DNA from: Candidatus Aenigmatarchaeota archaeon
GTDB lineage: Archaea > Aenigmatarchaeota > Aenigmatarchaeia > GW2011-AR5
Assembly: GCA_016193585.1 (NCBI GenBank)
Contig: JACPRW010000007.1
Span: 1-42,332 of the forward strand
Direction: 5' to 3'
Length of the DNA: 42,332 nt
In this document: positions 18,133-19,076 of the stretch, one piece after another
How positions within the stretch are numbered: the stretch's first letter is position 1
How the letters are laid out: each line of letters opens with the position of its first letter
Made by a program: the position numbers and the translations under genes
Notes under the pieces: generated by a model
The model's input: the letters and a program-made list of their open reading frames with translations, nothing else
Database searches by the model: none
Told to the model about the DNA's origin: nothing

Positions 18133-18795
18133 CTAGAGTGCGAGCAGTTGCTCAGCCTTCAGGCTCGCAAGGCTTTCCACGACCATAAGCGCCTTGGGGA
18201 ATTCCTGCCCTTTCATGTATTTGTTGGGGGCGACAATGCACCTGAGACCTGCTGCCTGCGCAGCCTGGAAGCCCGCAAGCGAGTCCTCGACAGCGATGCA
18301 GCTGGCCGCCTTCAGGCCGAGCTTTTTCAGCACAAGGAGATAGACGTCCGGAGCAGGCTTTATTTCCCTGACTTCGTCGCCTGTTGCCAGCGCGTCGAAC
18401 GCGCTGCCGAGCTTGAGGAATTTGAGCGTCATGAGCACCGAAGGCCTCACGGAGTTCGTTGCAAGCCCGAGCTTCGCCTTCCCGCGCAGCCCGGCGATGA
18501 GTTGCTGCGCGCCCTTCGCCGGCCTCACACCCGCTAGGAGCTTCATGTAGCGCTCCCGCTTCTTCCTTACCAGCGCGTCGTTGCTGTCGAGGCGGCCGAA
18601 CGTCTGTAAAATATACTCGGCTGTTTTTTCCCCTCCCTTGCCGACCACGCGCACGAAGTTGTCCAAGGTGAAGTCCACGCGGTATTCCCTGAGCGTCTCT
18701 TTCCACGCGCGGTAGTGCAGCGGCTCGGTGTCCGCGATGGTGCCGTCCAGGTCGAAAATAACTCCGTGTACGATATGCTCCACCTTGCTGTACAT
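18133..18795 (-). CDS. HAD-superfamily phosphatase (beta-phosphoglucomutase-like subfamily)
   Basis: Motif I GVIFDLDGTIADTEP (nucleophile Asp), motif II ATNSVRPS, Lys in REIKPAPDVYLL and motif III CIAVEDSLAGFQAA, with a helical cap: a haloacid dehalogenase hydrolase. Substrate not deducible. The frame stays open upstream to 18912, but that stretch is the tRNA-Gln gene. The first plausible start, ATG 18795-18793, begins on the last base of the tRNA; GTG 18783 is an alternative. Confidence 0.88.
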   Translation of the reverse strand: MYSKVEHIVHGVIFDLDGTIADTEPLHYRAWKETLREYRVDFTLDNFVRVVGKGGEKTAEYILQTFGRLDSNDALVRKKRERYMKLLAGVRPAKGAQQLIAGLRGKAKLGLATNSVRPSVLMTLKFLKLGSAFDALATGDEVREIKPAPDVYLLVLKKLGLKAASCIAVEDSLAGFQAAQAAGLRCIVAPNKYMKGQEFPKALMVVESLASLKAEQLLAL

Positions 18796-18946
18796 AGCCC
18801 CAGCAGGACTTTCGGCTCGCTGCGCGTGTTCAGCAGAGCGTTCGAACCTGCGTCCGAAGCTTTCTTCAGGGGTTGCCGGAGGCATCGGAACTCGCTGGGG
18901 TTCCGATTCCAAAGGCTTCTATGCTTGGCCACTACACCATGGGGCT
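18795..18946 (-). tRNA. tRNA-Gln (UUG) with two introns, at 37/38 and 59/60
   Basis: Exons 18946-18909, 18861-18841 and 18808-18795 join to a 73-nt tRNA in which every stem pairs: acceptor AGCCCCA/TGGGGCT, anticodon stem GAAGC/GCTTC with loop CTTTGGA (anticodon UUG), T-stem GCAGG/CCTGC with loop TTCGAAT, discriminator A, no encoded CCA. Intron 1 (18908-18862, 47 nt) has central helix CTTT/GAAG with bulges GG^A and AA^A. Intron 2 (18840-18809, 32 nt) has a strict bulge-helix-bulge: central helix TTCG/CGAA, bulges AA^C and AG^T, inner helix GCTC/GAGC. Archaeal splicing endonuclease would remove both. Confidence 0.96.
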
Positions 18947-18953
18947 AATTGCT

Positions 18954-19050
18954 TATAGTGAAACCAGTAAATAATCTGGATATATTACAACTGGTTTCAC
19001 GTATAGCTCACAAGGAAATAATATCATGTTTGTCCCCTTGTAGAGCTATA
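18954..19050. repeat. TATA-palindrome elements, copies 4 and 5, between tRNA-Gln and the YbaK-like gene
   Basis: Copy 4: GTGAAACCAGT (18958-18968) pairs perfectly with ACTGGTTTCAC (18990-19000); loop AAATAATCTGG... Copy 5: TATAGCTC-ACAAGG (19002-19015) pairs with CCTTGT-A-GAGCTATA (19036-19050) with one bulged A; loop AAATAATATCATG... The right end CTATAAAAG (19046-19054) is a TATA box about 27 nt before the ATG at 19077, which predicts an almost leaderless mRNA. Confidence 0.8.
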
Positions 19051-19076
19051 AAAGAATAAGTTACAAGGTTTAAATA

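Follow-up and report, generated by a model that had tools for sequence, protein, structure and literature searches.

A tRNA gene interrupted twice, once in its T-loop, in an archaeal genome in which a single lysine-less splicing endonuclease was found

Background

Introns in the T-loop of tRNA genes are a known rarity. A candidate of this kind lies in the window discussed here, a stretch of 42,332 nucleotides that forms the whole of contig 6 of a Candidatus Aenigmatarchaeota assembly (1,170,395 bp, 10 contigs, 90.75% complete). A sequence-only reading, which named no strand, had proposed a tRNA-Gln(UUG) gene with two introns, of 47 nt at position 37/38 and of 32 nt at position 59/60. Is the gene real, and what enzyme could cut it? 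Fragmentation of tRNAs to this degree usually goes with enzymes more elaborate than the simple EndA, with its altered active site, that is encoded in the host genome.

Thermoproteales and Caldiarchaeum are already known to have tRNA genes with several bulge-helix-bulge (BHB) introns, which lie at 37/38 and also at non-canonical positions, the T arm among them (Sugahara 2008; Fujishima 2010; PMC4033280, PMC3293823); as here, a gene may hold several introns and many genes are affected. However, Thermoproteales have heterotetrameric endonucleases, and the host belongs to another phylum and has a single alpha-type gene. The host is an ultrasmall archaeon, one of the groups that the sequence-only reading had named for T-loop introns, and so are the Micrarchaeota (ARMAN; PMC12397907), which also have introns at diverse tRNA positions; but their EndA is of the epsilon-2 type, whereas the EndA of the host has 211 aa, and no fused three-unit enzyme was found in the host or its family. 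The host combines T-loop tRNA introns with a lysine-less alpha-type EndA, the only one found.

Results

Anatomy of the gene

The gene is on the minus strand (Table 1). Once the two introns are removed, the remaining 73-mer, AGCCCCATGGTGTAGTGGCCAAGCATAGAAGCCTTTGGAGCTTCGGACGCAGGTTCGAATCCTGCTGGGGCTA, with anticodon TTG, folds into a complete cloverleaf in which 21 of 21 pairs are standard: the proposed gene structure holds.

Table 1. Features of the window in and around the tRNA-Gln(UUG) gene
Feature	Positions	Strand	Description
HAD-family phosphatase ORF	18133..18795	minus	downstream of the tRNA
tRNA-Gln(UUG) gene	18946..18795	minus	3 exons and 2 introns; 152 nt including discriminator
Exon 1	18946-18909	minus	38 nt: acceptor 5' strand, D arm, anticodon stem 5' strand, loop to G37
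Anticodon TTG	18912-18910	minus	inside exon 1
Intron 1	18908-18862	minus	at 37/38, 47 nt; relaxed BHB, internal 8-bp hairpin
Exon 2	18861-18841	minus	21 nt: A38 to A59 (anticodon stem 3' strand, variable loop, T stem 5' strand, TTCGAA)
Intron 2	18840-18809	minus	at 59/60 in T-loop, 32 nt; strict BHB
Exon 3	18808-18795	minus	14 nt: T60, T stem 3' strand, acceptor 3' strand, discriminator A73
Dispersed double-hairpin repeat copy	18953..19051	minus	upstream of the tRNA

Both introns are bounded by a bulge of 3 nt, a helix of 4 bp and a second bulge of 3 nt. At the T-loop intron the motif is strict: TTCG pairs with CGAA, the bulges are AA^C and AG^T, the inner helix is GCTC/GAGC, and the outer helix is the T stem. 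The sequence-only reading had called this a textbook BHB, with exactly these elements, and the motif is already part of the unconstrained minimum free energy (MFE) fold of the 152-nt precursor (z = -3.5; 0 of 200 shuffles as stable).

At intron 1, the central helix is CTTT/GAAG and the bulges are GG^A and AA^A; the motif is relaxed on its inner side, the inner helix being non-adjacent on the 3' side. This BHB is absent from the unconstrained MFE fold; when it is imposed, the energy rises 4.5 kcal/mol above that fold. This cost speaks for intron calls that are partly wrong, with borders off by a few nucleotides or with two nested introns in place of intron 1, and the 16-nt stretch GCCTCCGGCAACCCCT, between the internal hairpin of intron 1 and the central helix, points the same way: its removal would make the BHB symmetric. 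However, shifted borders would disrupt the anticodon loop or stem, and 37/38 is the commonest intron position both in the host genome and in its relatives in the class. We consider an error of this kind improbable, and keep the borders of Table 1. A homology between intron 1 and the T-loop intron of relative L242 was considered and set aside: the shared CCAGCG.GTTCC / CCTCC.GCAACC is too short to claim.

Detection and uniqueness

It had been predicted that standard scanners would miss this gene, and they do: the window locus is reported neither by ARAGORN, run with and without introns, nor, at a threshold as loose as E <= 10, by the tRNA model of Rfam. We searched with a custom multi-intron finder whose model accepts introns in the D arm, the anticodon region and the T loop; its criteria favour paired solutions, and it still misses several tRNA isotypes, so that the tRNA set is incomplete. 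In the real genome, the finder reports 27 tRNAs with scores from 45 to 62, the window gene scoring 51. In 20 first-order Markov genomes it makes 4 hits, with a best score of 27: an origin of the window tRNA-Gln(UUG) by chance is excluded.

The sole other Gln tRNA found in the genome, at C3:139528-139618, has anticodon CUG. Another intact tRNA-Gln(UUG) gene would have weakened the sequence-only reading; none was found in this 90.75%-complete genome, although the absent portion might hold one. A tRNA with C34 cannot read CAA, and CAA is in use: the 16 genes of the window contain 30 CAA versus 144 CAG codons (30/174). The UUG gene should thus be essential.

These observations weigh against a decayed tRNA, that is, a former gene in which the introns are inactivating insertions, CAA being read by a tRNA encoded elsewhere. 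The relaxed motif of intron 1 could be read as a sign of decay, but all 21 pairs are intact, the BHB of intron 2 is strict, no other UUG gene was found for the CAA codons in use, and the double-intron design is kept in several families of the class. Decay is disfavoured, to the point that we give it hardly any credence, and we go on with a working tRNA.

Introns in the host genome and in the class

Most tRNAs of the host genome are interrupted, at 37/38 and, for several of them, at other positions. Two further introns at 59/60 are those of Ser(GGA) (C8:49765-49906) and Ser(UGA) (C3:265675-265498). A pattern for the 5' half of tRNA-Gln gave candidates in 87 of the 156 genomes of the class. As resolved by the finder, the pair of introns at 37/38 and 59/60 interrupts Gln(UUG) in at least six relatives (L174, L232, L242, L249, L251, L206, L245), spanning families f5, f8, f14, f19 and f26; L171 and L172 (f2) have the 59/60 intron alone, L151 (f1) has the 37/38 intron only, and L215 and L216 (f1) have an intronless gene. 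The uninterrupted T-loop site is visible in the last three. Introns at 59/60 also occur in Gln(CUG) (L168, L219, L222, L264) and in Asp(GUC) (L161-L163).

All the 59/60 introns of the relatives cut after A59. Of 18 distinct introns at this position, 17 have a partner base that matches nucleotide 57 (G:C in 11, A:T in 6), a count slightly favoured by selection, the finder demanding 3 of the 4 central pairs. The 69 distinct mature Gln sequences of the class comprise 1449 pair cells, of which 1447 are standard, and they show many compensatory changes in the acceptor, anticodon and T stems, across the splice junctions; the finder has pairing among its criteria, but not the variety of pair types, and these counts include related genomes, kinship being uncorrected. 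One call, in L156 with a score of 37, was judged to join two tRNAs falsely and was left out of the covariation count.

By eye, T-arm introns at 53/54 are apparent in the tRNA-Gln of L194, L226, L233, L254 and L255; they fall outside the model of the finder, which did not resolve these sequences.

In the host genome, a hairpin CCTTTTCTT...GAAAAGG is common to a 37/38 intron (C1:111306-111368) and to the T-loop intron of Ser(GGA) (C8:49837-49892). These two introns hold two of the three occurrences of the hairpin genome-wide, which is suggestive of an intron transposition between positions.

A guide carried by the introns of relatives

Among 34 distinct Gln(UUG) introns at position 37/38 from the class, 26 contain the motif [CT][CT][AG]A[AG]G-NN-box D, in most cases with a GATGA-like box C after it; 0.13 such motifs are expected in shuffled introns, and none of the 8 Gln(CUG) introns has one. 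The relatives concerned include L246, L186, L190, L208, L181 and L174, and the smallest such intron is 28 nt long. The antisense stretch corresponds to C32-G37 in the anticodon loop of its own tRNA, and the box D + 5 rule designates U34. In 21 of the 26 introns, the base that stands two positions ahead of box D is complementary to tRNA base 31 (G:C 15, U:A 5, A:U 1), a covariation with permutation p = 5e-5, ignoring relatedness. A search for fibrillarin was positive in 29 of 31 genomes from the order. Judging from these motifs, the 37/38 introns of Gln(UUG) in many relatives probably encode a box C'/D' guide to their own U34. Among open-licence PMC papers, reviews name only tRNA-Trp as an archaeal tRNA with an intron that guides its own methylation (PMC4090602, PMC11408192); the wording of PMC7994747 is 'some cases', citing the Trp paper.

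Intron 1 of the window has no antisense guide next to box D, and the element is also absent from the family f1 introns examined. The window intron may have lost its guide, or may never have had one. A search of the host genome with two C/D patterns, for a trans-acting C/D sRNA to U34 of tRNA-Gln, gave no match.

The splicing endonuclease

A search with PF01974 yields one EndA gene in the host genome, coding for an alpha-type protein of 211 aa. As in an alpha-4 enzyme, this single gene carries both an N-terminal domain (PF02778) and a catalytic domain (PF01974), and the protein scores above the TIGR00324 endA cut-off; its homologues in named genomes are nearly all from Ca. Aenigmatarchaeota, with 48-84% identity in the best segment. 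The best structural match of the predicted model (pLDDT 84) is the alpha-4 EndA of M. jannaschii (PDB 1a79; TM 0.88 on target, 40% identity), likewise a two-domain protein encoded by a single alpha gene, and also the best full-length sequence match. Apart from the loop between the catalytic Tyr and His, the family profile is nearly ungapped with respect to 1a79, and, in our reading of the alignment, there is no insertion in the N-terminal region where the ASL/CSL loops lie. The enzyme is probably a homotetramer of the M. jannaschii kind, to which reviews give a narrow specificity.

The active site is where the two differ. Of the Tyr-His-Lys triad of alpha-4 enzymes, Tyr and His are kept and Lys is not: Tyr141, His157, Arg187 and Lys152 are present in 67 of the 67 Aenigmatarchaeota EndA homologues examined, and the position of the triad lysine, which phmmer aligns with K287 of A. 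fulgidus, is Ala in 62 of them, Thr in 3 and Ser in 2, with Ala in the host. In ARMAN-2 EndA, the catalytic lysine is K282 (PMC12397907). Compared to M. jannaschii, the Aenigmatarchaeota enzymes also have six extra residues between Tyr and His, including an invariant GPK. Lys152 sits in this basic loop, and the loop may stand in for the lost lysine. The alpha subunit of N. equitans EndA (PDB 3iey_A) has a basic Tyr-His loop of the same length, PKKGKRSEREH, but, unlike the host enzyme, it keeps the triad lysine and has a beta subunit as partner.

The introns had been said to need a heterotetrameric or epsilon-2 enzyme, a claim that does not agree with the gene content: the only EndA found is this 211-aa alpha-type protein, nearest to the M. 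jannaschii homotetramer, and no (alpha-beta)2 or epsilon-2 EndA, fused three-unit protein included, was found in the host genome or its family. A family-specific profile, built from 35 Aenigmatarchaeota EndAs and searched at E <= 10, gives exactly one EndA in each of 16 host-family genomes, five of them at least 90% complete, and zero in three incomplete ones; no second subunit appears at this threshold in the host genome or in the 16 family genomes with EndA. With this profile the 96-aa beta subunit of P. aerophilum is seen only at E = 0.022, and a very divergent beta could escape.

It is thus conceivable that the tRNA is real and spliced, but by a heteromeric enzyme whose second subunit is too divergent or lies outside the assembly, the lysine-less alpha being one of the partners. 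The enzymes known to have broad specificity are indeed all (alpha-beta)2 or epsilon-2 (PMC6379350, PMC4033280, PMC12397907); a catalytic residue is replaced, and elsewhere in the class several families have a further or different EndA with an open frame of about 400 aa. Yet the 16 family genomes agree on one EndA and no second, and the lysine-less protein retains both Pfam domains, its Tyr and its His, and passes the endA cut-off. Weighing these, we find a heteromer a serious but rather unlikely alternative to an enzyme made of the single alpha-type protein.

Within the class, EndA architectures vary: there are short lysine-less alpha proteins, tandem pairs of about 170-220 aa, proteins of about 400 aa, and combinations of these. 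In some families, the open frame of about 400 aa is found instead of the short EndA, in others beside it.

The hypothesis that introns outside 37/38 are strict because the enzyme is narrow found no support overall: the inner helix has at least 3 pairs in 12 of 19 introns at 59/60, one of which is a low-score call, versus 33 of 58 at 37/38 (Fisher p = 0.79). A post-hoc count by hand gives 10 of 12 in families with the short EndA only, and 1 of 6 where the family has an EndA of about 400 aa; it is only suggestive of a strictness that differs by enzyme type.

Discussion

How the gene may be processed

The host genome encodes a ligase, RtcB, as well as the splicing endonuclease. Starting from the observed anatomy of the gene, its conservation in relatives, the gene content and the residue replacement, we propose, with considerable confidence, that the window holds a working tRNA-Gln(UUG), the sole one found, and that it is spliced by the single alpha-type EndA and RtcB. 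Once transcribed, the precursor would fold so that a BHB bounds each intron; at the T-loop intron, U54-U55-C56-G57 would pair with CGAA near the 3' end of the intron, the T stem serving as outer helix. The single EndA would cut both bulges of each intron, leaving 2',3'-cyclic phosphates, and RtcB would join the three exons into a mature 73-nt tRNA that reads CAA. Cleavage to cyclic phosphates followed by ligation by RtcB is established for archaea generally, and is presumed to apply here.

The role of the altered active site is more speculative; a lysine-less enzyme might be slow or inactive. We suggest tentatively, at slightly less than an even chance, that a homomeric alpha EndA, devoid of the triad lysine and of the known specificity loops, processes T-loop and other non-canonical introns with its Tyr-His centre and its GPK loop. 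If true, this breaks the rule that intron diversity requires (alpha-beta)2 or epsilon-2 enzymes. Since even a narrow enzyme could cut strict BHBs outside 37/38, a real contradiction arises only from the relaxed ones, which are numerous.

Consequences

Introns at 59/60 are widespread in Aenigmatarchaeota, and standard scanners undercount the tRNA sets of such genomes: where essential tRNAs seem to have been lost, the annotation can be at fault. T-loop introns in a genome whose one-gene EndA is without the triad lysine challenge the accepted link between type of endonuclease and diversity of introns. Relatives with and without each intron form natural before/after pairs, and the varied EndA architectures of the class form a natural series in which to study the coevolution of enzyme and introns.

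Neighbourhood of the gene

On its upstream side, the tRNA is separated from a divergent gene with an aminoacyl-tRNA editing domain by a copy of a dispersed repeat, other copies of which lie, for example, at C5:37108-37206 and C3:296025-296123. The genome has 87 units of this repeat, with 11-bp arms GTGAA.../...TTCAC followed by TATA, and the arms vary between copies in a compensatory way. By a crude gene call, 70 of the 87 units are intergenic, with no orientation preference relative to the neighbouring genes. The repeat is also present in most genomes of the family, a reversed-pattern control being near zero. From its form, it may be a MITE-like or a palindromic regulatory element.

On the downstream side, a possible ATG of the HAD-family phosphatase (18795-18793) uses the discriminator A73 as its A, so that 3' processing of the tRNA would remove this start codon. 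An alternative start, GTG, lies four codons in.
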